Shown here one piece after another: positions 14,278-56,771 of a stretch of 64,000 bases of DNA. Position 1 is the first letter of the stretch. The number at the start of each line of letters is the position of its first letter. The stretch lies in contig SUZW01000009.1 in assembly GCA_015059685.1 (NCBI GenBank), positions 1-64,000 of the forward strand, given 5' to 3'. Under the pieces are notes generated by a model. That model was not told the origin of the DNA. It did not search any database and worked only from the letters and a program-made list of their open reading frames with translations. The stretch is from Rikenellaceae bacterium (lineage in GTDB: Bacteria > Bacteroidota > Bacteroidia > Bacteroidales > Rikenellaceae). The translations under genes were made by a program, and so were the position numbers.

Positions 14278-15072
14278 CTAATAAAGTCCTAATTTATTGT
14301 TCATCAACGATATGCCGATGCGTATCTTGCAGTGGTAGCGGTCGTAGTCGAGCATCGTGTCGCCATATCCCGACGAAAATTGCACATAGAGCGACGGTAT
14401 CCAATCGCCTCGTTTTGCCATCTTCCATGCCGCCTCGAGCTGTATGTTGTAGTTGCGGAATATGTTGGATGGATTTACGAGTGCCGTGGCCGAAAAGCGG
14501 TCGTTGAGGGTGTGGTATGTCGCCCAGATGTGGAACACACCTCGGTAGTCGTAGTAGTCAAACATCGTGTCGTGGTCGTAGTATCCGTACCATATACGCC
14601 CACCAAATCGCCAATGCGAGAACGGCTCGTAGAGTACAGCCACGGTGGCGTAGTTGAACGAGCGTGAAAGTTCATCTTTCTGACCATTTGACTCGTGTTC
14701 GATACCGAACAATAGGCGAGTCTGCTCCGTTACCTGCCACGCAGCCCAGACACCCGGGTTGTAGGCCGTTTCACGGAACGGACACGACTCTTGGTAGATA
14801 TCCCATACGCTGTGCTGCGAGTATGTGAAGAAGATGTCGGCCTTACCTTTGATGTTCCACAATCGTAGGCCGAGGCTCAGTTGAAACTTTGCATCTGCCG
14901 AGTATTGCGATAGAGGCTTGTCGAGCGAAGCTCCCGTTGCAAAGTACGAGTTGCGCCACATACCGAATACGGGGTAGCGACTCTTGGGCTTTACGACAAG
15001 ACTATCTGCGCTTTCAGCACTTGCCGAAAGAGCAAATATCGACGCTAATATTATCGCAAAAAGCCTTCTCAT
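14278..15072 (-). CDS. outer-membrane phospholipase A (OMPLA/PldA-like)
   Basis: SCPFRETAYNPGVWAAW, GIEHESNGQKDELSRSFNY and VQFSSGYGDTMLDYDRYHCKIRIGISL match PldA motifs (active-site H/S/N region, C-terminal YGESLIDYN-like strand); signal peptide. Confidence 0.8.
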   Translation of the reverse strand: MRRLFAIILASIFALSASAESADSLVVKPKSRYPVFGMWRNSYFATGASLDKPLSQYSADAKFQLSLGLRLWNIKGKADIFFTYSQHSVWDIYQESCPFRETAYNPGVWAAWQVTEQTRLLFGIEHESNGQKDELSRSFNYATVAVLYEPFSHWRFGGRIWYGYYDHDTMFDYYDYRGVFHIWATYHTLNDRFSATALVNPSNIFRNYNIQLEAAWKMAKRGDWIPSLYVQFSSGYGDTMLDYDRYHCKIRIGISLMNNKLGLY

Positions 15073-21103: not shown

Positions 21104-22270
21104 ATGAGAAAACTACTTACCTGTATAGCTCTTGTGTGCGGTATCTACTCTGCACAGGCTATAAAGATTATCCACGGCCCATATCTGCAGGCCGTTACCG
21201 ACACCGAGGCCACGGTTGTGTGGGTTACCGATACCAATGCTCTGTCGTGGGTTGAGGTGGCACCCGATGATGGCACCCACTTCTACTACAAGGAACGCCC
21301 AAAATTCTACCAAACACGCTTCGGTAAGCGTACTATAGGCACACTGCACGAGGTACGAATTACGGGTCTGGAGCCGGGCAAGCAATACCGCTACGCCGTA
21401 GCTTCGAAGGAGGTGCTTGCGCAGAAGGGACCACGCATCCACTATGGCAATGTCGCATCCACAAATGTCTATCGCAAGGGCGCACACACTATCCCTACGC
21501 TCAACCCTGCGAAGGAGGAGATAGAGTTTGTGGTGATGAATGATGTCCACTCCAAGATAGATAAGATGGAGGCGTACCTCACACACTGCTTCCAAAAGGA
21601 GAAGACCGATATGGTATTCTTCAATGGCGATATGGTTAGCGATATTCCCAACGAGCAGGTGCTCTTTGATGGCTTCTTGGATACGGCTGTGAAGCACTTT
21701 GCAAGCAATACACCATTCTACTATGTGCGTGGTAACCACGAAACCCGTGGCAAGGGAGCTTTGAAATTTATGTCATATTTCCCAACTCCGACTGCCAAGC
21801 CATACTATACGATAAACCATGGCAATACCTTCTTTATCGTGCTCGATGGTGGCGAGGATAAACCCGATAGCAATATCGAGTACTACGAAACGGCAGCTTA
21901 CGACTCCTATCGCAAGGAGGAGGCCGAGTGGCTGAAGGAGGTTGTCGAGAGCGAGGCGTGCCGCAATGCCAAATATCGTGTTGTGCTGCTCCATATGCCG
22001 ACTATTAAAGGCAGCAAGTTGTGGCACGGAGCAAGACACGCAACCGAGTGCTTCATCCCTATCTTAAACAAGGCCAATATTACGGTTATGTTGTGTGGCC
22101 ATACCCACAAATACTCCTTCCATAACACGCCAGAGACTACCGAGGCAGCTTTTCCTATTCTTGTGAATAGCAATAGTGCAGTTTTGAAGGCAAATGTCAC
22201 GAGCAGCTGCATCAAGATAGATGTTGTAGATTTGGAGGGGAAGGTGGTTAAATCCCACTTGTTCAAGTAA
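21104..22270 (+). CDS. secreted metallophosphoesterase with N-terminal purple-acid-phosphatase-type Fn3 domain
   Basis: Signal peptide; VVMNDVHSK, FNGDMVSD, YVRGNHETRG, MLCGHTHKY metallophosphatase motifs. Confidence 0.9.
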   Translation: MRKLLTCIALVCGIYSAQAIKIIHGPYLQAVTDTEATVVWVTDTNALSWVEVAPDDGTHFYYKERPKFYQTRFGKRTIGTLHEVRITGLEPGKQYRYAVASKEVLAQKGPRIHYGNVASTNVYRKGAHTIPTLNPAKEEIEFVVMNDVHSKIDKMEAYLTHCFQKEKTDMVFFNGDMVSDIPNEQVLFDGFLDTAVKHFASNTPFYYVRGNHETRGKGALKFMSYFPTPTAKPYYTINHGNTFFIVLDGGEDKPDSNIEYYETAAYDSYRKEEAEWLKEVVESEACRNAKYRVVLLHMPTIKGSKLWHGARHATECFIPILNKANITVMLCGHTHKYSFHNTPETTEAAFPILVNSNSAVLKANVTSSCIKIDVVDLEGKVVKSHLFK

Positions 22271-22484: not shown

Positions 22485-22646
22485 TGTTGTGGGAACTCTC
22501 GAGGTGGTTGGTGGCGCAAGTAAAATAAGGGTTAGTAAGGGCTAGTAACGGCTAGTAAAGAAGGCGCTATACCCTTACTGGCCCTTAATAGCCCTTACTG
22601 GCCGTTACTGACCGTTATCAGATTGCGCCAACTCTCCACTCTCAAC
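22485..22646 (+). repeat. modular intergenic repeat copy B (decamer interior)
   Basis: GTTGTGGGAACTCTCGAGGTGGTTGGTGGCGCAAG + (GGCTAGTAAC)-type decamers + ATTGCGCCAACTCTC. Confidence 0.85.
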
Positions 22647-22691
22647 AAAACAGAGGGACACTTCCGAAAAGGAAAGTGTCCCTCTGTTTTA
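22647..22691. terminator. bidirectional terminator
   Basis: AAAACAGAGGGACACTTCC gaaa AGGAAAGTGTCCCTCTGTTTT. Confidence 0.8.
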
Positions 22692-22705: not shown

Positions 22706-23905
22706 TTAATCTTGCAGTCTAATAGTGATATTTTTATTATCCTCACACCACATATTGCCAATACGCAAGAGAGGTTCGCTTGACACGCCTCCCTTTGCAA
22801 TGAAGCGAATAGTCACCGTGCCGAATGGGTGTAGGTGGTATGTAGTACCACCGAGGTGTAGAGTGTATCGTATCGACGAGAGGTTTGTAACCATATAGGT
22901 ACAATTACCCTGACTATCTTTCGAGAGAAACTTCGAGCGAGTCGAGGCGGTGAAGAGTGCGCCCAGCAGCTCCTTGGTGCCGATGATATTTCCTGCACAG
23001 TAGCCGAGTGTGCGACGAGCCTCCAAGGCCTCACGAATAGCCTCGGCGGTATTCTCCTTCGCCAGAATAAAGGTCATGGTACGATATACGCCCAAGCCTC
23101 TCAACTCGTCCATAGTAGGGTGGTGGGTATCGGTAGCGGCAACCATATAGAAGTTGCGCTCGATAGCACGACGCACGGTAGGAGGGTAGAACGAGAAGGC
23201 ATTTGCCACCTCGATACCGTCAATCAACCCTGCATCGTAGGCCTTCTGCTCGAACTCGGTGATGTCGCAAGTTGTGCGCTTGTAACCCGGGTGGTTGTGC
23301 GTGATAAGGGCACCCTGCGCACGAGCCTTGCGGAGCGACTTCAACGGATCGGGGTCGTAGATTTTGTTGTTATCCTTGGTAAAGAGGGCGCAGTAGTGGC
23401 CGATATCTGTGGCGTGGCGTGTAATCTCGATACCCGGGATAAGGAGCATATTGTCGTATTGGCTCATAGCCTTCTTGGCCAACTCGACCGAGAGGTTGAG
23501 GTCGGCAAGGATGCCCCTCTTGTCGGCTGGCTCCACGATAACATTGGTATTTACCCCCTTGTGCGGTTTTTTGTTGGCATTGTAGTTCTTGGTGAACTTG
23601 AGAAAGTGGTTCTCCCACGGACGGTACTCCAAGTGCTCGGTTATGGCCAAGATATCCAAACCATCCAACCACGCCTCTCGTACTCGCTCCGCTGGTGTCA
23701 CATGACCATCAGAGAATATGGTGTGGACATGCAGGTCGGCCTTGTAGATGTTGTAGCCATTGACCTGTGGCAGAACAATCTCGGTACGATGCAGAGGGTG
23801 GCGAATGCCTGCCATTTCCCTCACCTCTGGAACTTTGGACTGCGCCACACTCGACGATATGCCGAGTGTTGCACACAATACGAGAAGCAAGATAATTCGT
23901 TTCAT
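22706..23905 (-). CDS. secreted PHP-domain phosphoesterase, copy 1 (Sb-PDE-family-like)
   Basis: Signal peptide; KADLHVHTIFSDG..TPAERVREAW, AITEHLE, HNHPG, TDTHHP PHP metal-binding motifs. Confidence 0.9.
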   Translation of the reverse strand: MKRIILLLVLCATLGISSSVAQSKVPEVREMAGIRHPLHRTEIVLPQVNGYNIYKADLHVHTIFSDGHVTPAERVREAWLDGLDILAITEHLEYRPWENHFLKFTKNYNANKKPHKGVNTNVIVEPADKRGILADLNLSVELAKKAMSQYDNMLLIPGIEITRHATDIGHYCALFTKDNNKIYDPDPLKSLRKARAQGALITHNHPGYKRTTCDITEFEQKAYDAGLIDGIEVANAFSFYPPTVRRAIERNFYMVAATDTHHPTMDELRGLGVYRTMTFILAKENTAEAIREALEARRTLGYCAGNIIGTKELLGALFTASTRSKFLSKDSQGNCTYMVTNLSSIRYTLHLGGTTYHLHPFGTVTIRFIAKGGVSSEPLLRIGNMWCEDNKNITIRLQD

Positions 23906-23914
23906 AGGTCTCTA

Positions 23915-25093
23915 TTAGTAGTTAAGTTTTATCTCGAGGTTTTTACGCTCTGTGTGTATCATATTTGTCACAACAATCGGTATCTCGCCCTTATCTACCG
24001 AGATTGTCACCGCACCCAAAGCAGGTATGGTGTATGGGCGGTATCCACAGGTGATGTGATACTCGATTGAGGAGTTGTTGCGAAGAGAGAAGGTAACCTT
24101 GCCCTTCTCCTTGTTCTCGTGTACCTTCTCTGCCTTTACCGAGGCGTGGAATAGGTCGGAGAGCAACCTCTCCTCGCCAATGACATAGCCTGCCGAGTAA
24201 CAGAGTGTGCGACGAGCCTTCAAAGCCTCACGAATACCCTTCTCGCTCTTCTCCTTGGCGAAGATAAGAGTCATATTGCGGAATATGCCAAGGGAGCTAA
24301 ACTGCTCACTGGTAGGCTTGTGGGTGTCAGTGGCCGATACCATGTAGAACTTACGCTCGATAGCACGACGCACGATTTTCGGATAGAAGGCATTGCCATT
24401 TACAACCTCGATACCATCGATCAACCCCTCGTCGTATGCTTTCTGCTCGAACTCGGTAATATCGACCGATGTGCGTTCCCAACCCGGGTGGTTGTGGGTG
24501 ATGAGTGCGCCCTGTGCGTGAGCATTACGAAGTGCCTGCAAATCGTCACGGTCGTAGATAGTGTTGTTGTCCTTGGTGAAGAGGGCGCAGTAGTGGCCAA
24601 TCTTCACGGGCTCACGCGATATCTCCGTACCACGGATAAGGAAGAGGTCGGGATATAATTTGACCTGCGACTTTGCCAAGTTGTACGAGAAGTTCAAATC
24701 GGCAATGATGCCTCGCTCGTCAGCCGGCACACCACGAGAACAACGGGTGTTGATAGGCTCAAAGCCCTTATTGTCCGGCGAGTAGTTTTTCAGAAATTTA
24801 AGCATTGAGCGCTCCTGACGACGAGTCTCGATATGGTCGGTGATGGCCAAGATGTCGAGTCCGTCGTGCCACGCCTCACGCACACGCTCCTCGGGCGTAA
24901 CCTCACCATCGGAGTAGATTGTATGCACATGCAGGTCGGCTTTGTAGCAGTTGTAACCATTAACCTGCGGAATGATAATCTCGGTACGACCGACCTGTTT
25001 CTCGAAAAGTCGTTCGGTATCGGGGTTATACTTCGCTACGCTCGATGCGATGCCGAGAGCGACCAATATAAGCGTTACTATGTATCGTTTCAT
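23915..25093 (-). CDS. secreted PHP-domain phosphoesterase, copy 2
   Basis: Same architecture (LHVHTIYSDG, AITDHIE, HNHPG, TDTHKP); start chosen at MKRYIVTLILVALG (ORF extends to 25132). Confidence 0.9.
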   Translation of the reverse strand: MKRYIVTLILVALGIASSVAKYNPDTERLFEKQVGRTEIIIPQVNGYNCYKADLHVHTIYSDGEVTPEERVREAWHDGLDILAITDHIETRRQERSMLKFLKNYSPDNKGFEPINTRCSRGVPADERGIIADLNFSYNLAKSQVKLYPDLFLIRGTEISREPVKIGHYCALFTKDNNTIYDRDDLQALRNAHAQGALITHNHPGWERTSVDITEFEQKAYDEGLIDGIEVVNGNAFYPKIVRRAIERKFYMVSATDTHKPTSEQFSSLGIFRNMTLIFAKEKSEKGIREALKARRTLCYSAGYVIGEERLLSDLFHASVKAEKVHENKEKGKVTFSLRNNSSIEYHITCGYRPYTIPALGAVTISVDKGEIPIVVTNMIHTERKNLEIKLNY

Positions 25094-25107
25094 TGTGATA
25101 GGAATTT

Positions 25108-26292
25108 TTATTTCGAAACCTTTAGAGTCCAAGTAGGGCGTTTGTCATCCGGCAACCAAAGGTTGTCGATGCGGTAGCGTGGGTCTTGCCACTCGCCACT
25201 CTTGCTCCTCTTGACCGTAACACGAATACTCTCCATACCCTTCAACTCACGCACGATTTGACCCTTGCGGAGGATGAATGGGAAGGAGGTGTTGTTGGTG
25301 ATGACAAAGGTACGAGCACCAGCCTTCTTGTCTTCGAACTGCAAACGGCAGGTTACCGAAGCATCGAAGAATGGTCGTAGCCACTGCTCCTCGCCCATGA
25401 TGTTGCCACCGCAATATACGAGTGTGCGACGCTTCAGGAGCGCATCTTTGATAGCCTTCTCGGTGTTCTCCTTGGCAAGGATAAGTGTCATTGTGCGGAA
25501 TATCCCCAAGCTCTTGAATACGGCCGATACTGGGTGGTGGGTATCGGTTGCTCCAACCATATAGAGGTCGTTGTCAACGGCACGACGCATAATTGGCGGA
25601 TAGAAGGTGTTGCCATTTACAATCTCGATACCGTCGAATAGACCTTGTGCCATAGCCGTAGCCTCAAACTCGGTCATCACACACTTGTCGCGCCTGATTA
25701 CGGGGTGGTTGTGTGTGATAAGGGCACCCTGCGCACGGGCGTTGCGGATGCACTGATAAGGGTCCTTGTCGAATACCGCCTCGATATCCTTCACGAAGAG
25801 AGCATTGTAGTCACTACCCGTCGATTGTGTGCGGCTGATCTCGGTGCCGTGGATGTAGAGTAGGTCGGGGTACTTTGCCGCCTCCTTGTCTGCCTCCTCG
25901 AATACGGCATTGAAATCGACCATCACACGACCACACTTTCCTGCGTGGGAGTATGGGTAAGGCTGCTCGTCGGGGTTGTACTTGCGGAGAGCCTTGAGCA
26001 TATACTTCTCGTAGCGACGAGCACCGAGGTGGTCGGTTATGGCTATAATATCCAAACCGTCGTACCACGCCTCACGAATACGCTCACGAGGCGTTACATC
26101 TCCATCCGAGTAGATTGTGTGCACATGCAGGTCGGCCTTGTAGCAGTTGAATCCCTTAACCTTTGGGGTTATAATCTCGGTACGGTCCTGCCCGAGCGTG
26201 AAGAAGCGGCGACGCACCACCTCCTTCTTCTGCGCCAAAGCATCGGAACTACCAAATGCCAAGAGTACAAGTATAATAAGTAATTTTTTCAT
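25108..26292 (-). CDS. secreted PHP-domain phosphoesterase, copy 3
   Basis: LHVHTIYSDG, AITDHLG, HNHPV, TDTHHP; signal peptide. Confidence 0.9.
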   Translation of the reverse strand: MKKLLIILVLLAFGSSDALAQKKEVVRRRFFTLGQDRTEIITPKVKGFNCYKADLHVHTIYSDGDVTPRERIREAWYDGLDIIAITDHLGARRYEKYMLKALRKYNPDEQPYPYSHAGKCGRVMVDFNAVFEEADKEAAKYPDLLYIHGTEISRTQSTGSDYNALFVKDIEAVFDKDPYQCIRNARAQGALITHNHPVIRRDKCVMTEFEATAMAQGLFDGIEIVNGNTFYPPIMRRAVDNDLYMVGATDTHHPVSAVFKSLGIFRTMTLILAKENTEKAIKDALLKRRTLVYCGGNIMGEEQWLRPFFDASVTCRLQFEDKKAGARTFVITNNTSFPFILRKGQIVRELKGMESIRVTVKRSKSGEWQDPRYRIDNLWLPDDKRPTWTLKVSK

Positions 26293-26309
26293 AGTGTGTT
26301 TTGTTTTTT

Positions 26310-27518
26310 TTATTTGTCGAGCGATAGCTCTATCGTAGGGTGCTTGTAATCAGCAATCCACATATTCTCTGCACGCAACTTTGGCAATCTGTATTTGCCG
26401 GTCTCTTTGTCTTTTCCGAAATCTACGAATGTGGTCTTGAATGGCTCCAACTCGTAGGTTATGCGGCCTCGACGCAGACGATATGTTATCGACGACATAT
26501 TTGTGAGAGCATATTTGCGTGTTCCCTTCTTCTCGTTCTCGCTCACCATACGGCAATCTACGGCAGCGTTCAAAAACTCCGCAAGCCACTTCTCCTCACC
26601 GATAAGGTCGCCACCAGAGTAGGCTATGGTGCGACGCTTCAAGATAGCATCCTTTACCGCCTTCTCGGTGCACTCCTTTGCCAGGACGATGGTCATCGTA
26701 CGGAATGTGCCGATAGTGGAGTACTTGTGGTTGATAAGGCCGTGGGTGTCGGTGTTGCCAAACATAGTGAGTTTGTTATCCACGCAACGACGCACCATAT
26801 ATGGGTAGAAACGGATGCCGTTTGCTACCTCCACACCATCTATAAGTCCCGAACTATAGACATCTGCATGCCACTCGTTCTCATACTTATCGACATTGCC
26901 CGGGTGGTTGTGGATGATGATGCCGCCCTGCTTCTTGACATTGAGGAATGCCTCTTTGAGCTCGAAGGCGTAGAGCGAGTTGAGGTCCTCGACAAAGAGG
27001 GTGTTGTAGTGTCCGAGCTTCTCGTTATTGCGGGCCATCTCGCAACCCTTGATGAGCAAAAGGTTGTATCCCTTGCGCTGGTTGTGCTTTACAGCCTCCT
27101 CGTGGATGGCGTTGAAATCGACCTTCAGACCGGGGTCTATGCCACTCTTTGGCATCTTCGTCGAACCAGGTACGAGATAACGGGTTGGCTTACCACTCTT
27201 GTTGTAGGGTGCCGAAACCTTCAAGAAACGCTTTACACCACTGTGGCTCTCGAGGTGGTCGGTGATAGCGATAATATCCAAACCGTCGTACCACGCTTCA
27301 TCTACTCGACCCGCAGGTGTTACCACACCATCGGAATAGGAGGTGTGAATATGAAAGTCCGCCTTGTAGCAGTTGAAGCCTTTGACCGTAGGCAGAATAA
27401 TCTCTGTACGACGAACAGAACTCTCCGGACAGGTTAGATGTACAATCGGAGCCTTCTTCTGTGCCTCGGCACCTGCCACGCAGAGCAGAGCCGATAATAG
27501 CAAAAGTATTCGTTTCAT
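26310..27518 (-). CDS. secreted PHP-domain phosphoesterase, copy 4
   Basis: FHIHTSYSDG, AITDHLE, HNHPG, TDTHGL; signal peptide. Confidence 0.9.
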   Translation of the reverse strand: MKRILLLLSALLCVAGAEAQKKAPIVHLTCPESSVRRTEIILPTVKGFNCYKADFHIHTSYSDGVVTPAGRVDEAWYDGLDIIAITDHLESHSGVKRFLKVSAPYNKSGKPTRYLVPGSTKMPKSGIDPGLKVDFNAIHEEAVKHNQRKGYNLLLIKGCEMARNNEKLGHYNTLFVEDLNSLYAFELKEAFLNVKKQGGIIIHNHPGNVDKYENEWHADVYSSGLIDGVEVANGIRFYPYMVRRCVDNKLTMFGNTDTHGLINHKYSTIGTFRTMTIVLAKECTEKAVKDAILKRRTIAYSGGDLIGEEKWLAEFLNAAVDCRMVSENEKKGTRKYALTNMSSITYRLRRGRITYELEPFKTTFVDFGKDKETGKYRLPKLRAENMWIADYKHPTIELSLDK

Positions 27519-27526
27519 AATATTCG

Positions 27527-28723
27527 TTATTTGTCAATTTCGAGGGTAATGGTTGGGTGCTGGTAGTCGATGTGCCACATATTATCTACCGTGAATGTAG
27601 GAGCAAGATACTTGCCTGTCTCCTTATCCTTGCCGAGGGTAACGGTTACGGCCTGGAATGGCTCCAACTCGTGAACAAACTTACCACCGTTGTTCAAACG
27701 ATATGTCAAAGATGTGGTGTTTGTAATCTGAAATCTGCGAGTGCCACTCTTCTCGTCAACTTTGATAAGGCGACAATCTATCGCTGCGTTCAAAAACTCC
27801 GTGAGCCACTTCTCCTCGCCAATCAGGTAACCTGCCGAGTAGGCTATGGTGCGACGCTTCAAAAGGGCATCCTTGATAGCTGCCTCGGTCAGCTCCTTTG
27901 CCAGAATGAAGGTCATAGTACGATATACGCCCAACGGACCATACTTGCGCATAGTCTGGCCGTGAGCATCCGTGCAACCCAACATAAAGAGGTTCTCCTC
28001 GACGCTACGGCGTACGATTGGAGGGTAGAACGACAAGCTGTTAGACACCTCGATACCATCAATCTTGCCCGCATCGTAAAGTGCAGCCTGCTCCTTGCTC
28101 TTTTCGGTTGTGCCACGCACGTATGCAGGGTGGTTGTGAACGACCAAACCACCTTGTTCGTGTACCTTGTCGAATGCTACCGACAGCTCCTTGTCGTAGA
28201 GTGGGTTGATATCCTTCAAGAATAGGCAGTTGAAGTGTCCGAGTATGTGGGCATTTCGAGCCATCTCGCAACCCTTGATAATCAACATCTCGTAGCCCGC
28301 CTTGTCGCGCATCTCAACAGCCTCCTCGTGTATGGCGTTGAAATCGAGCATTGCAGCACCGGCCTTGAATGCCGACATATACTTCGTTGGCTTGCCGTCA
28401 GCGTTGTACGGAGCAGCAACCTTAAAGAACTTCTGAACATTGCGGTAACCCTCGTAGTGGTCGGTGATGGCGATGACATCCAAGCCGTCGAACCAAGCTT
28501 CAGCCACACGACCTGCAGGTGTTATGCGACCATCCGAATACATTGTGTGGATATGGAAATCGCCCTTGTAGATGTTGTAACCCTTGACCTGTGGCAAAAT
28601 AATCTCCGTGCGACGGTTGTAGTCCTCGGCATTTGTTCTAAATACGTGCGGAATGTTCTCCTGTGCAGCGGCTGTTGTGAAACAGAGTCCTGCAAATGCC
28701 AAAATAAGCAGTGATTTTTTCAT
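27527..28723 (-). CDS. secreted PHP-domain phosphoesterase, copy 5
   Basis: FHIHTMYSDG, AITDHYE, HNHPA, TDAHGQ; signal peptide. Confidence 0.9.
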   Translation of the reverse strand: MKKSLLILAFAGLCFTTAAAQENIPHVFRTNAEDYNRRTEIILPQVKGYNIYKGDFHIHTMYSDGRITPAGRVAEAWFDGLDVIAITDHYEGYRNVQKFFKVAAPYNADGKPTKYMSAFKAGAAMLDFNAIHEEAVEMRDKAGYEMLIIKGCEMARNAHILGHFNCLFLKDINPLYDKELSVAFDKVHEQGGLVVHNHPAYVRGTTEKSKEQAALYDAGKIDGIEVSNSLSFYPPIVRRSVEENLFMLGCTDAHGQTMRKYGPLGVYRTMTFILAKELTEAAIKDALLKRRTIAYSAGYLIGEEKWLTEFLNAAIDCRLIKVDEKSGTRRFQITNTTSLTYRLNNGGKFVHELEPFQAVTVTLGKDKETGKYLAPTFTVDNMWHIDYQHPTITLEIDK

Positions 28724-28751
28724 AGTAGTAATTTTTAGTTGTTAGTTATTA

Positions 28752-29960
28752 TTATTTGTCAATTTGTACTTTAATATTCGGATGTTGATAGTCTATGTGC
28801 CACATATTTTCGATGGTCAGCGTAGGCTCCTCGCCCTTCGTGCCATCATTCTTGTAGCCTATAGTCACAGTCTGAAACGGCTTCAATTCGTAAATTGCAC
28901 TGTTGTAGGCGATGCGGAATACAATCGACGACTCATTGCTCAACTTGTAGAATGTCAGCCCTCGCTTCGCCTCGTGTCCCAAAATGCGACAATCTACCGC
29001 AGCATTGAAAAAGTCCGCTAACAGCCTCTCTTCGCCCATAAGTTGGTTACCGGAGTAGGCTATGGTGCGACGCTTCTCGAGGGCTTCACGAATGGCCTTC
29101 TCGCTGAACTCCTTTGCCAAGATAAAGGTCATCGTGCGGTAGAAACCTTGCGATCCGTAAATCTCGTATGTTGTGCGATGGATATCCGAAGCACCAAGCA
29201 TTATCAAATCCTCCTCCACAGCACGGCGTATCATCTTCGGATAGAAGGTCAAATCGTTTACAATCTCTACGCCGTCAATCAATCCCTCGTCGTAGATCTC
29301 CTGCTGCTGCTTGCTTTTGTCGGTCGTGGTGCGACGATAGGCAGGGTGGTTGTGGATAACCAAACCGCCTTGCGCACGAACATTGCGCATAGCCTGCTTG
29401 ATATCTGGGTCGTATATTGCACTGATATCTTTGACAAAGAGTGCGCTGAAGTGACCATAGTTCATTGGCTCTCGCGACATCTCGATACCCTTGACGAGCA
29501 TTATTGGAAGAAGACTGCGCTCAACAAATGCTTTTGCCTCGTCAAATACAGCGTCATAGTCGCAAGTTATACGGGTTGTATGTGTGTTTGTCGCCCCCTC
29601 AATCTTTGCAGGACGGTAGGTGTGGGGCTTGCCATCAGCGTTGTATGGAGCAAGGGCATTGAGCAACATCTGCTCCTGACGACGATACTCGAGGTGGTCG
29701 CTCAAACAGACGATGTCGAGACCATCGAACCACGCCTCTCGTATGCGTTGCTTTGGAGTGAGGTCGGCATCCGAGAACATTGTATGAGTGTGGAAGTCCG
29801 CCTTGTAGCAGGTGTAGCCATTTACTTTAGGCAGTATAATCTCCGTGCGACGAGCAGCCACGATGTCGCTTGTCAGATGTACATCCGGAATATTCTCCTG
29901 TGCTACGGCTGTTGATATGCCGAGCAACAGAAAAGTGAGAAACACGAAGTTTTGTTTCAT
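28752..29960 (-). CDS. secreted PHP-domain phosphoesterase, copy 6
   Basis: FHTHTMFSDA, CLSDHLE, HNHPA, SDIHRT; signal peptide. Confidence 0.9.
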   Translation of the reverse strand: MKQNFVFLTFLLLGISTAVAQENIPDVHLTSDIVAARRTEIILPKVNGYTCYKADFHTHTMFSDADLTPKQRIREAWFDGLDIVCLSDHLEYRRQEQMLLNALAPYNADGKPHTYRPAKIEGATNTHTTRITCDYDAVFDEAKAFVERSLLPIMLVKGIEMSREPMNYGHFSALFVKDISAIYDPDIKQAMRNVRAQGGLVIHNHPAYRRTTTDKSKQQQEIYDEGLIDGVEIVNDLTFYPKMIRRAVEEDLIMLGASDIHRTTYEIYGSQGFYRTMTFILAKEFSEKAIREALEKRRTIAYSGNQLMGEERLLADFFNAAVDCRILGHEAKRGLTFYKLSNESSIVFRIAYNSAIYELKPFQTVTIGYKNDGTKGEEPTLTIENMWHIDYQHPNIKVQIDK

Positions 29961-30015: not shown

Positions 30016-30023
30016 CAAAGATA
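30016..30023 (-). promoter_or_regulatory. -7 element TATCTTTG for the PHP operon
   Basis: TAnnTTTG consensus on the minus strand about 55 bp upstream of the copy 6 ATG; the only clear promoter-like site for the six tightly packed genes. Confidence 0.6.
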
Positions 30024-30025
30024 CA

Positions 30026-30066
30026 AAAAATGCTCGAAAGTTAAACACCTTCGAGCATTTTTTTGA
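30026..30066. terminator. terminator downstream of pfp
   Basis: TGCTCGAAAG ttaaaca CCTTCGAGCA with A/T tracts on both sides. Confidence 0.65.
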
Positions 30067-30088: not shown

Positions 30089-31321
30089 CTACCAGTTCAA
30101 AATCTTGCGGAAGTCGTACGCCTCCGGATTAGCTACATACTGCTTTGCAGCCTCGTAGTCCTCCTCGGTGATGTAGTTCATGATGTTGTTGATAACCTGC
30201 TGGATCTTGTCCGACTCGATGTTTACGAGGCGTGGCGGAATTTTTCCGGTTGTAGGGTCCTGCAAATCCTTCAAGTAGAGAGGCGATACGAAACCGTCCT
30301 GCGAGATATAGACCATGCAGCCGGTCTTGCCCTCCGAGAAGAGCTTGTAAACACCCATACCAAGCTCCGAGCAGTAAACCAAGTCGTAAGCGATAGGGGT
30401 CTGGCAACGAACCTCGTAACCAATCTCCACAGGGCGCGACTTAACCTTGATTTTCAACTCCTTGAGCTTCGCCTCGAGCATCTCGTTGAAGATGTGAGCC
30501 TTCGATACCTTACCGAGCTCTGGATGGCCGTGGTCGTCGTATGTGAAGTGAACGCCACTCTTTGCAATCTCCTCGTCAGAGAGAGCGTGGAACACACCCT
30601 CCGAGATCATTGCAACACCATACTCAACGCCCATCAACTTACGCTTGATGATTGACGATACAACCAGGTTCACAATCTTCTCGACAGTAATCTCGGTCTT
30701 GTTGAACATCTCCGGAATAACAATCATAGGGTAGTGGCAAGCCGAGCCGATACCGAATGCGAGGTGACCTGCCGAGCGACCCATGGCAGCAACTACAAAC
30801 CAGTTAGCCGATGTGCGAGCGTCGTTGTAAACGGCACGACCGATAACGGTGCCACCCTCCTTTGCCGACTGGTAGCCGAAAGTTGGCGAACCTGCAGGAA
30901 GCGGAAGGTCGTTGTCGATAGTCTTTGGAACATGGATGTTGGCGATAGGGTACTGCTTTGCCTCGAGGAACTTCGCGATGCGGTTTGCGGTCGAAGCGGT
31001 ATCGTCACCACCAACTGTTACGAGCAACTTGATGTTGTTCTCGGTGAAGAACGAGAGGTTAAAGTTATTTTCGAAATCTGCATCGGTTGGCTTGAAACGG
31101 CTCATAGTGAGGTACGAACCACCCTGGTTGAAGATGAAGTCGGCCTTGAAGAAGTCCAAATCCTCGTGACGAGGGTTTGGATTGAAGAGGCCCGAGTAGC
31201 CGTGGTGCAAACCGATAACACGATAACCTTTTGCAAGGAAAGTCTTTGCAACGCTACCTACAACGGTGTTCATACCCGGTGCAGGACCGCCGCCTGTCAA
31301 AATTGCAATTGCTTGTTTCAT
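30089..31321 (-). CDS. pfp: 6-phosphofructokinase, pyrophosphate-dependent type
   Basis: AILTGGGPAPGMNTVVGS; GGDDTAST; PKTIDNDLPLPAGSPTFGYQSA; AMGRSAGHLA. Confidence 0.88.
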   Translation of the reverse strand: MKQAIAILTGGGPAPGMNTVVGSVAKTFLAKGYRVIGLHHGYSGLFNPNPRHEDLDFFKADFIFNQGGSYLTMSRFKPTDADFENNFNLSFFTENNIKLLVTVGGDDTASTANRIAKFLEAKQYPIANIHVPKTIDNDLPLPAGSPTFGYQSAKEGGTVIGRAVYNDARTSANWFVVAAMGRSAGHLAFGIGSACHYPMIVIPEMFNKTEITVEKIVNLVVSSIIKRKLMGVEYGVAMISEGVFHALSDEEIAKSGVHFTYDDHGHPELGKVSKAHIFNEMLEAKLKELKIKVKSRPVEIGYEVRCQTPIAYDLVYCSELGMGVYKLFSEGKTGCMVYISQDGFVSPLYLKDLQDPTTGKIPPRLVNIESDKIQQVINNIMNYITEEDYEAAKQYVANPEAYDFRKILNW

Positions 31322-31426: not shown

Positions 31427-31506
31427 GGTTGTGGGGACTCTGGAGGTGGTCGGGGCGCAAGTTTATTAGGGTCGTTAGAGGCGTTAGGGTCGTTAGGGGT
31501 GCGCTT
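31427..31506 (+). repeat. modular intergenic repeat copy C1 (nonamer interior)
   Basis: GGTTGTGGGGACTCTGGAGGTGGTCGGGGCGCAAGTTTATTAGGGTCGTTAGAGGCGTTAGGGTCGTTAGGGGTGCGCT. Confidence 0.85.
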
Positions 31507-31515
31507 GAGGTTTTA

Positions 31516-31760
31516 GGTTGTGGGGACTCTGGAGGTGGTCGGGGCGCAAGAGAATATGGCATAGAATGGCAAGCGTTCGCTAACGCTCACTGAATGGCAA
31601 TCGCTCCCGTTGGTCGCTGAATGGCAGGCGCTTAGGCTTTTTGTCGCAGCTTTCTGCGCTTTGCCATTAAGCAGTCGATAGACTGCGCTGCCATTCAATG
31701 CCATTAAGGGCGGAACGCCCGTTTGTCATTCAATGCCATCTATTTGCGCCAACTCTCAAC
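31516..31760 (+). repeat. modular intergenic repeat copy C2 (hairpin array with ATGGCA linker)
   Basis: Same 33-bp left end, then GAATGGCA-linked palindromes, right end TTTGCGCCAACTCTCAACT. Confidence 0.8.
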
Positions 31761-31814: not shown

Positions 31815-32414
31815 TCAACTCCCTGCCTTCAGCTCCTCAATCTGCTGCAACAGGTCGTCGGCCGTGCGAAGTGTGCGTTTGTGGATGCGTAAACCCACGA
31901 TGCCACCGATAATACCGCCAAAGATGCCACTTGCACTAATCATCAGCAATGCCGATATATCTTCGTTGGCTTGGTTTAGATATAGTTCATACTCCATCCA
32001 GCCGAACCACACTAACACCATAGGAATTGACCAATAGTGCCAACTCTTGTATATCTTCTTCATTCGGGCAACCTCCTTGTAAACCGTTACCAGGTTGCCT
32101 GAATAGATATCACGCTTATGGATGCGGTAGTGGCTGACGATTATCGCTATAAGACAGATTAGAAATAGAGCCGAAGTAGCGATACAGAATGCCGTAGAGT
32201 GTCCTATTCTTTGGAAATTGAAATAGCCGAGTGGTATCATAACAAGGCACACGATACACATCCAAATCGCACTATTGTTCAGCGATGATAGCTTGCGCCC
32301 CATCGCTTCCTTGATAAGGCGGTCGTTTACTATTGTCTGACTTTCAAGACGCTTTTTGAGCGTTGCAAGTTGCTCACGCATCTCGTTGAGTTCGTTGAAA
32401 TCTCTATCGTTCAT
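31815..32414 (-). CDS. multi-spanning membrane protein of unknown function, downstream of the ECF sigma gene
   Basis: Coiled-coil N terminus and about 4 predicted TM helices; 12 bp after the sigma-factor gene. Confidence 0.7.
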   Translation of the reverse strand: MNDRDFNELNEMREQLATLKKRLESQTIVNDRLIKEAMGRKLSSLNNSAIWMCIVCLVMIPLGYFNFQRIGHSTAFCIATSALFLICLIAIIVSHYRIHKRDIYSGNLVTVYKEVARMKKIYKSWHYWSIPMVLVWFGWMEYELYLNQANEDISALLMISASGIFGGIIGGIVGLRIHKRTLRTADDLLQQIEELKAGS

Positions 32415-32426
32415 AGTTCTACCCTG

Positions 32427-32915
32427 TTAATCGTTTGACATATTTTTAAGTTGTTCGCGTATGCGCACGAGGCGTACCGATACATTTTTTGCGGTGATGC
32501 CTACAATGGCACCAATCTCCTCGTAGGAGAGATTTTCGAGCCACAGCAGAATTATCGCTCGGTCGAAAACACCGAGGCGGCCAATGCGCTCTCGCAGCAT
32601 CTGCGCCTGACGACTATCCTCGTCGGTGTCGGAGAAGAGGTCGATACTCATATCGAGGCGCACCGAGTCGGCTTGGCGACGCTTCTTGCGCTCGGCACTT
32701 ATGCAGGTATTGAGAGATACACGGTATATCCACGAGCGAATGTTACACTCGCCACGAAACTTCTCGAAGCCTCGCCACAAGGCAATTAAGGCCTCCTGAA
32801 AGAGGTCCTCGACCTCCTCCTTATCCTTCGAAAACATATAGCAGACGGTGTAGATGGTCGCCTTGTGTTCCCGAATGATGCGGGCAAACTCTTGTTCGGA
32901 ACTATTCATCTTCAT
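32427..32915 (-). CDS. ECF RNA polymerase sigma factor
   Basis: VCYMFSKDKEEVEDLFQEALIALWRGFEKFRGECNIRSWIYRVSLNTCIS (sigma2), LENLSYEEIGAIVGITAKNVSVRLVRIREQLK (sigma4). Confidence 0.93.
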   Translation of the reverse strand: MKMNSSEQEFARIIREHKATIYTVCYMFSKDKEEVEDLFQEALIALWRGFEKFRGECNIRSWIYRVSLNTCISAERKKRRQADSVRLDMSIDLFSDTDEDSRQAQMLRERIGRLGVFDRAIILLWLENLSYEEIGAIVGITAKNVSVRLVRIREQLKNMSND

Positions 32916-32976: not shown

Positions 32977-33486
32977 TTAGCCCCTGACTCCAAGCACCCT
33001 GTCGAAGAGCTCCTGCTGGGGGCTGATGTAGAGGTTTGTGTAGAGGTGCAGAGCCTTGATTGTGCGACGCACGGTGTAGGCAGTGCCGCCCTTCGAGCCA
33101 TCGAAGTAGGCTATCGTTGCCGAGGAGTTATCGACCAGGAAGTTGTTGCGCACGGCATACACTCCGGCCGAGTAGTGCGGGGCGAGGAGTACGACCTTGT
33201 CGGCAGCGGCCAAAATTGCATCGTAGTGCGCTCTTGCCTGCTTGGAGAATTTACGCTCCATACCCTCGAAGGGCACCACCGCAACAAGCGAGATGCCGGG
33301 CAGCTCCCCACGCAACTGCAAAACCGCCTCTGCGGCTGCGTGGTCGAAACCTACGGCCATACCCGACAAAAAGATGCGATAGCCTCGGGCGTAGTACTCT
33401 CGGATGGCGCACCGCAACTCCTCGTCGCAGCAACCATCGTAGCTACGATGCCCCGTAAAGCAGAGTGTGATATCTCGGTCGAACAC
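32977..33486 (-). CDS. SLOG-domain protein (DUF1273/YpsA-like)
   Basis: CFTGHRSYDGCCDEELRCAIREYYARGYRIFLSGMAVGFDHAAAEAVL. Confidence 0.8.
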   Translation of the reverse strand: MFDRDITLCFTGHRSYDGCCDEELRCAIREYYARGYRIFLSGMAVGFDHAAAEAVLQLRGELPGISLVAVVPFEGMERKFSKQARAHYDAILAAADKVVLLAPHYSAGVYAVRNNFLVDNSSATIAYFDGSKGGTAYTVRRTIKALHLYTNLYISPQQELFDRVLGVRG

Positions 33487-33533: not shown

Positions 33534-33557
33534 TTTGACAAAGTTTTCTTACCTTTG
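33534..33557 (+). promoter_or_regulatory. promoter of PHP copy 7 (TTTG ... TACCTTTG)
   Basis: TTTG at 33534-33537 and TACCTTTG at 33550-33557, 40 bp upstream of ATG; spacing between the boxes is shorter than canonical. Confidence 0.5.
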
Positions 33558-33597: not shown

Positions 33598-34824
33598 ATG
33601 AAACGATTAACACTCCTTTTTGCAGCCGTGGCACTTGCGGTGTCGGCTGTATCTGCGCAGGTTGTGCAGACACCCGTAAAGGGCAAAACGGGCATCCGCC
33701 TCTACGATAAGGTGGTACCTCGTACCGAGATTATTCTGCCTCAAATTCAGGGCTACAACTGCTACAAAGCAGACTTCCACACCCACACCATCTACTCTGA
33801 TGGTGAGATTACACCTCGTGAGCGTATGCGTGAGGCGTGGTATGATGGTTTGGATATCATCGCTATCACCGACCACCTCGAAATTCGTCGTTACGAGAAG
33901 TATATGTTGCGAGCTTTGGCTCCATACAACCCCGATGGTGTGCCATACAAGTATGCCAATGCAGGTGCAGGCAACAAGAACGACAAGAATGCCCCTATGT
34001 TGTCGAACCTGAATGCCTGCTTCGAGGAGGCTCTCCACTTTGTTGAGAAGGAGAAGATACCTGTGTTGCCTGTTCGTGGTACCGAGATTTGGCGTAGCCC
34101 AAAGACTACGGGCGAGTATAACGCCCTCTTCTTGAAGGATATCAACGCTATCTGCACGGCCGACCTCTTCGAGTGCTTCCGTCGTGTTAAGGAGCAGGGC
34201 GGTATCATTATCCACAACCACCCGGGCTGGAACCGCCCTACAATGGATAAGAGCGAGGATCAGGAGCGCATCTATGCCGAGGGCTGGGTTGATGGTATCG
34301 AGGTTGTAAATGGCAGAACGCTCTATCCGCAGATGATTGACCGTTGCATCAACGAGAAGCTCTTTATCTCGGCAAGTACCGACCTCCATATCCCATCATC
34401 ACAACGCTATCCTCGTGGTGGCGAGATTTTCCGTACCCACACCATTGTCTTGGCCAAGGAACTTACCGAGGAGGCTGTTAAGGAGGCATTGAAGGCCCAC
34501 CGCACCATCGGTTACTCGGCAAACAACTTTATTGGTGAGCAGTATTGGCTCAACGAGCTCTTGAATGCAGCTGTTATCTGCCAGGTTATCGGTGTAGATG
34601 AGGAGGCTGGAAAGCGCACCTTCCTCTTTACAAATACCTGTTCCGTACCATTTATCTTGAAGCGTGGCAAGGCTACACACAAACTCCTTCCGTTCCAATC
34701 GTTGCGTATAAACATCAGCCGCAACAAGGAGACAGAGGAGTTCTATCCACCAACCTTTGATGTGTTGAATATGTGGACTGCGGGCGACAAACACCCACGC
34801 CTCACATTCGAGATCGACAAATAA
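33598..34824 (+). CDS. secreted PHP-domain phosphoesterase, copy 7 (dispersed)
   Basis: FHTHTIYSDGEITPRERMREAWYDGLDIIAITDHLE, HNHPG, TDLHIP; start chosen at MKRLTLLFAAVALAVSAVSAQ inside the longer ORF 32854-34824. Confidence 0.9.
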   Translation: MKRLTLLFAAVALAVSAVSAQVVQTPVKGKTGIRLYDKVVPRTEIILPQIQGYNCYKADFHTHTIYSDGEITPRERMREAWYDGLDIIAITDHLEIRRYEKYMLRALAPYNPDGVPYKYANAGAGNKNDKNAPMLSNLNACFEEALHFVEKEKIPVLPVRGTEIWRSPKTTGEYNALFLKDINAICTADLFECFRRVKEQGGIIIHNHPGWNRPTMDKSEDQERIYAEGWVDGIEVVNGRTLYPQMIDRCINEKLFISASTDLHIPSSQRYPRGGEIFRTHTIVLAKELTEEAVKEALKAHRTIGYSANNFIGEQYWLNELLNAAVICQVIGVDEEAGKRTFLFTNTCSVPFILKRGKATHKLLPFQSLRINISRNKETEEFYPPTFDVLNMWTAGDKHPRLTFEIDK

Positions 34825-34843: not shown

Positions 34844-34880
34844 AAAAAATAAGGCAACTTCGCAAGTTGCCTTATTTTTT
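34844..34880. terminator. bidirectional terminator
   Basis: AAAAAATAAGGCAACTT cgc AAGTTGCCTTATTTTTT. Confidence 0.85.
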
Positions 34881-56738: not shown

Positions 56739-56771
56739 TACTCTGTATGTTAACAATCTAAAATTGTGATA

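Follow-up and report, generated by a model that had tools for sequence, protein, structure and literature searches.

The only characterised homologues within the close family of the proteins described here, at about 26-27% identity, are Sb-PDE from Sphingobium and No-PDE from Novosphingobium, which are secreted PHP hydrolases (PMC5460133; PMC11656708). They form an isolated cluster, no member of which exceeds 36% identity to proteins outside it, and in a survey of 623 Sb-PDE homologues a function was known for Sb-PDE alone (PMC11656708). In the trinuclear metal site of No-PDE and of the structure 3E38, two metals serve to activate water, with the third stabilising the leaving group. Residues 96, 137, 206 and 209 of No-PDE line the leaving-group pocket and residues 236, 239, 263 and 268 the side-ester pocket, and mutation of several of these residues alters the selectivity for diesters versus monoesters (PMC11656708). 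Within the Bacteroidota, sets of periplasmic phosphodiesterases and phosphomonoesterases for organic phosphorus are known from the Flavobacterium PUS, where a SusC/D pair is present; the study describing them makes no mention of PHP enzymes (PMC8115612).

In the window, a stretch of 64,000 nucleotides from a Rikenellaceae bacterium (contig SUZW01000009.1), six open reading frames for PHP proteins of 392-402 amino acids are arranged head to tail on the minus strand between positions 22706 and 29960 (Table 1), as the first-pass annotation of this DNA had proposed. The gaps of roughly 8-28 bp given there were also recovered, at 9, 14, 17, 8 and 28 bp, after the start of copy 5 had been corrected from the TTG at 25132 to the ATG at 25093. 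Pairwise identity between the PHP copies is 38-58%. By hydropathy and visual inspection, an N-terminal hydrophobic signal region is present in all seven PHP copies of the window, in agreement with the claim that each has its own signal peptide; the six array proteins have a lysine-containing start followed by a hydrophobic stretch that extends to near a small-residue cleavage site. Profile searches, which had been named as a check on family identity, placed five of the six array copies above the Pfam gathering score for PHP, while copy 1 fell slightly short, scoring 22.9 against a threshold of 26.4 bits.

Table 1. Positions of the PHP genes, neighbouring genes and transcription signals in the window.
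Feature	Positions	Strand	Remarks
Terminator hairpin with flanking A/T runs	22647..22690	-	3' end of the array
PHP copy 6	22706..23905	-	399 aa, secreted; 3' end of the operon; motif II EH for DH
PHP copy 5	23915..25093	-	392 aa; cross-species orthologues in other arrays
PHP copy 4	25108..26292	-	394 aa; Asp in place of the beta-metal His
PHP copy 3	26310..27518	-	402 aa; orthologue group of nine members
PHP copy 2	27527..28723	-	398 aa; AlphaFold pLDDT 95.3; nearest PDB entry 3E38
PHP copy 1	28752..29960	-	402 aa; first gene of the operon; motif I SDA for SDG
-7 element TATCTTTG of the array promoter	30016..30023	-	conserved after pfk in relatives
Intrinsic terminator of pfk	30025..30063	-	array promoter follows directly; covarying stem in 10 sequences
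Phosphofructokinase, pfk (PF00365)	30089..31321	-	conserved syntenic anchor; function for the array not evident
YpsA-like SLOG-family gene	32977..33486	-	conserved syntenic anchor, pfk to PHP copy 7
-7-like element TACCTTTG	33550..33557	+	upstream of PHP copy 7
PHP copy 7	33598..34824	+	408 aa; divergent; beta-metal Glu; same place in relatives
Hairpin followed by T-run	34851..34873	+	downstream of PHP copy 7

The six array genes are predicted to form one operon and are likely to be transcribed as one unit, since a single promoter module precedes them, no further -7 motif occurs in the intergenic gaps of the window array, and a hairpin closes the array. In the 128-bp gap between pfk and the array, the hairpin of the pfk terminator is followed directly by the -7 element, and this terminator-promoter module was found in most relatives carrying an array after pfk. 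Across ten such sequences, TAnnTTTG was exact in all but two of the pfk-array gaps, and 8 of the 16 pairs of the predicted terminator stem displayed two-sided changes with the pairing kept. The -7 element upstream of the first gene and the terminator at the far end, both claimed in the first-pass annotation, were confirmed, and the single operon claimed alongside them stands as a prediction. Separately, an interspersed intergenic repeat, GTTGTGGGNACTCTNGAGGTGGTNGGNGGCGCAAGT, occurs together with near variants at 22486-22521 and at about 31427-31545 and has short TAGTAACGG-like repeats beside it; its core has eight sites genome-wide, each of them reported for the forward strand.

The AlphaFold model of copy 2, the one copy modelled, has a pTM of 0.90 and adopts the PHP fold. 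Its best PDB match is 3E38 (Foldseek E 6e-34, TM 0.88 by target length, 30-31% identity over 378 aligned columns), which is BVU_3505, a putative two-domain PHP-like phosphoesterase of Phocaeicola (Bacteroides) vulgatus. The two-domain layout of 3E38, PHP followed by a C-terminal beta domain, extends across the full chain of the model, and the trinuclear site and a Bacteroidales origin are shared as well. In contrast to 3E38, the window copies form a six-gene array, differ at pocket residues and are longer in the segment from motif II to the bridging Glu. Next among the PDB matches of the model were TM0559, RNase AM and an AMP-bound PHP enzyme from Chromobacterium. RNase AM has the PHP fold and metal-dependent phosphodiester hydrolysis in common with the array proteins but is remote (21% identity, TM 0.67 by target) and, to our knowledge, not secreted. 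The array copies share the nine metal-ligand positions of Sb-PDE and No-PDE (PMC5460133; PMC11656708), but the match to No-PDE, at 27.4% identity over 66% of the query, leaves them outside the small Sphingomonadaceae phosphodiesterase cluster, and most of the mutagenised pocket residues differ. The array proteins are homologous to Sb-PDE and No-PDE and probably alike in their working. In its logic the array resembles the Flavobacterium PUS (PMC8115612), but it lacks the adjacent SusC/SusD pair that marks a PusCD locus, its conserved neighbours being pfk, YpsA and copy 7.

The ligand numbering of PMC11656708 was transferred by means of No-PDE, which was located on plasmid NZ_CP039696.1 (offset 9). 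Across 140 aligned sequences, the ligands H61, H63, D68, E135, H203, D260 and H262 were invariant, and H93 was changed once, to Tyr. The beta-metal ligand H142 was His in 114 sequences, Glu in 23 and Asp in three; in the window, Asp occupies this position in copy 4 and Glu in copy 7, and Glu was present in all ten members examined of the seventh-copy group. An acidic residue at this position can still bind metal, and the metal-ligand set of the PHP superfamily is complete in the window copies, with the H142 position being acidic in these two. As the metal ligands are kept, the idea that the copies are pseudoenzymes was rejected. The full PHP motif set originally ascribed to each copy is not identical in all of them, the departures being SDA in copy 1, EH in copy 6 and the acidic residues of copies 4 and 7. 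In sum, the signal regions, Pfam matches, fold and ligands support the proposal that the genes encode secreted PHP phosphoesterases, a function predicted from sequence and model.

Divergence of the pocket was analysed in six orthologue groups comprising 47 sequences, with 348 alignment columns ranked by their information about the group. Columns 96, 137, 263, 268 and 239 of No-PDE ranked 1, 6, 33, 34 and 38 of 348; position 137 was fixed inside every orthologue group, and position 236 is a conserved Asn. With position 206 in a gapped column and position 209 unusable, six testable pocket positions remained. Their mean was higher than that of random columns (p = 0.0006) and of entropy-matched columns (p = 0.003), also when the seventh-copy group was left out (p = 0.004 and 0.010, respectively), these p values being guides because the groups were drawn from the tree and the sequences are related. 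The group-specific divergence at the pocket positions lends support to the substrate diversification suggested earlier. Between species, dN/dS was far below 1 for each copy (0.03-0.31 for the array genes where dS was finite, compared to 0.02-0.05 for pfk and 0.05-0.20 for YpsA), indicating that purifying selection holds each slot. By this measure the array diverged faster than pfk, yet within the range of a neighbour gene, and no sign of positive selection on whole genes was seen.

The first-pass annotation had overlooked the divergent copy 7, and an eighth PHP copy was identified on another contig, bringing the total in this genome to eight. Its closest relatives are known as MAGs filed under Alistipes sp. 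or Rikenellaceae bacterium, obtained mostly from the hindgut of sheep, goat, cattle, yak, buffalo and deer, and the bacterium carrying the window is presumably a herbivore-gut, Alistipes-like one. A search for the same array in other Bacteroidales and a phylogeny of the duplications had both been suggested at the outset. The search recovered the pfk-locus array in these MAGs, in the order PHP7, YpsA, pfk, array and with 2-7 PHP genes. The subfamily occurred in 29 of about 197 other Bacteroidales genomes sampled with one or two copies each, versus eight here, which agrees with the claim of an unusual expansion. Within the family it was found in 20 of 119 other genomes, mostly with 1-3 copies, and a subset of the genus carries 5-9 PHP genes (counted with split matches merged). 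In the tree, copies 2, 3 and 5 group with their positional counterparts in several species, and copies 4 and 6 are without close counterparts in other species. The occurrence of the array at the same pfk locus in relatives and the several cross-species orthologue groups indicate that, by these sequence comparisons, the array is old; recent tandem duplication is ruled out by these groups together with the low identity between copies. Regarding a mobile origin, no near match was found among phages, and a plasmid protein search returned distant homologues only. As a side observation, the IS6 transposase WP_006949122.1 is encoded on plasmids both close to the No-PDE gene and close to a further PHP homologue from Sphingobium (L106:276-1040, L108:3123-3887), and is a possible route of PHP gene spread. 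The array was not found described in literature searches; its novelty is the tandem, slot-conserved expansion with metal-site variants.

The metallophosphoesterase at 21104, the OMPLA-like phospholipase (PLA1) at 14278 and the OprO/P-like porin at 56766 had been annotated correctly. Their proposed union with the array into a system attacking lipids or teichoic acid is not supported, since none of the three was found beside the array in relatives. The neighbours conserved there are pfk, the YpsA-like SLOG gene and PHP copy 7, which lies divergently. In the window, two genes are located within 31815-32915, separating pfk from the YpsA gene: one of the sigma-70 family (ECF-like; 32427-32915) and one of 199 aa that has no Pfam match and is possibly an anti-sigma factor; this pair was not found between pfk and YpsA in relatives. 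In one relative, two tandem paralogues of about 719 aa occupy the same variable YpsA-pfk spot (L017:1987-6460).

Judged by gene adjacency, in about nine genomes of the genus operons of two to eight tandem secreted S1/P1 nucleases end in a PHP gene, which follows the last nuclease after 13-39 bp. PHP homologues were further found after a SusC/SusD pair (two genomes of different families), after a GDPD gene in one operon (L083) and with an EEP-metallophosphoesterase fusion as operon partner (two genomes). These partners point to phosphodiester scavenging. As the S1/P1-PHP operons and the pfk-locus arrays were seen in different genomes, this evidence concerns a related PHP group and not the array. 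In the genome under study, S1/P1 gave 11 matches, and several of these form a tandem array that has no PHP gene. The S1/P1 sites (G000:C16:33431-39096, L129; also on C8, C21 and C28) represent a second secreted phosphoesterase expansion in this small genome and may rival the PHP genes in interest. The eight PHP-rich genomes of the genus, those with at least five PHP genes, have 7-12 S1/P1 matches, versus 0-6 in 29 others, and the rank correlation with PHP number was rho 0.51 for S1/P1 and 0.73 for GDPD. In a DnaG tree, in which rows G012, G019 and G023 were disregarded for anomalous branches that probably stem from mis-framed sequences, seven of the eight PHP-rich genomes fell into one clade and G031 into another. 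The S1/P1-PHP co-expansion therefore amounts to at most a few events and is confounded by ancestry, which weakens it as independent proof. Overall, the context supports phosphodiester scavenging without choosing between nucleic acids and glycerophosphodiesters.

We favour, with somewhat better than even confidence, the reading that the array is a periplasmic, specificity-diversified set of hydrolases for scavenging organic phosphodiesters, with fragments of nucleic acids or glycerophosphodiesters being likelier substrates than teichoic acid. We tentatively consider that the array may finish the digestion of extracellular RNA or DNA begun by S1/P1 nucleases and, as part of the same tentative proposal, that it would do so, e.g., by opening 2',3'-cyclic phosphates or removing 3'-phosphates, with ends or bases differing per copy. 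The tandem S1/P1 operons ending in a PHP gene, the number of S1/P1 matches in the genome itself and the presence of RNase AM and the AMP-bound PHP enzyme among the structural neighbours argue for this; however, the array operon is without S1/P1 genes in the array genomes, the GDPD and SusC/D partners are not specific to nucleic acids, and PHP numbers follow GDPD counts no less closely than S1/P1 counts. The GDPD correlation within the genus, the GDPD-PHP operon and the OMPLA-like PLA1 within the window would rather suit cleavage, alongside GDPD enzymes, of head-group diesters such as GPC, GPE, GPG and GPI from deacylated lipids. This appears rather unlikely, as such an operon was seen once and PLA1 lies about 7.6 kb past the array end and was not seen together with arrays in relatives.

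Two further explanations depart from diversified phosphodiester hydrolysis altogether. The best NCBIfam match of the array copies is the CehA/McbA metallohydrolase (NF038032), at 61.9-79.4 bits and just below its cut-off of 80 bits, and the copies might accordingly be PHP-fold hydrolases of other esters or carbamates in vivo, like CehA/McbA, and not phosphoesterases. We regard this as improbable given that the ligand set matches that of phosphodiesterases, that operon partners are phosphodiester hydrolases, and that homology to No-PDE and 3E38 extends throughout the catalytic domain. Redundant copies raising a single enzyme activity by gene dosage would be compatible with the common operon, fold and metal site, but are likewise improbable in view of the 38-58% identity, the long-lived orthologue groups and the group-specific pocket residues.

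For the favoured scavenging function, we infer that the array copies are catalytically active on phosphodiesters. The operon would export six PHP-family hydrolases to the periplasm, each with the same trinuclear metal centre, as described for No-PDE and 3E38, and with different pockets for the two ester groups. Together, the six enzymes would hydrolyse several different organic phosphodiesters, and perhaps also the monoesters so formed, yielding alcohols, nucleosides or sugars and phosphate. As a guess, the main substrates may be glycerophosphodiesters or else the short oligonucleotides or nucleotides that S1/P1 nucleases, which abound in these genomes, leave behind. It is conceivable, if short of probable, that every slot of the operon encodes a separate periplasmic phosphodiesterase whose pocket is conserved in its own right, that the natural His-to-Asp/Glu change in some copies alters metal or substrate preference, and that the array and the amplified S1/P1 arrays make up a hitherto undescribed system with which herbivore-gut Rikenellaceae scavenge nucleic acids and organic phosphate. 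Paralogues with one catalytic centre and naturally different pockets, several of them slot-conserved, offer a test of the residues that set diester/monoester and leaving-group specificity, and the array supplies candidates for the enzymes that turn over organic phosphorus in the hindgut of herbivores.
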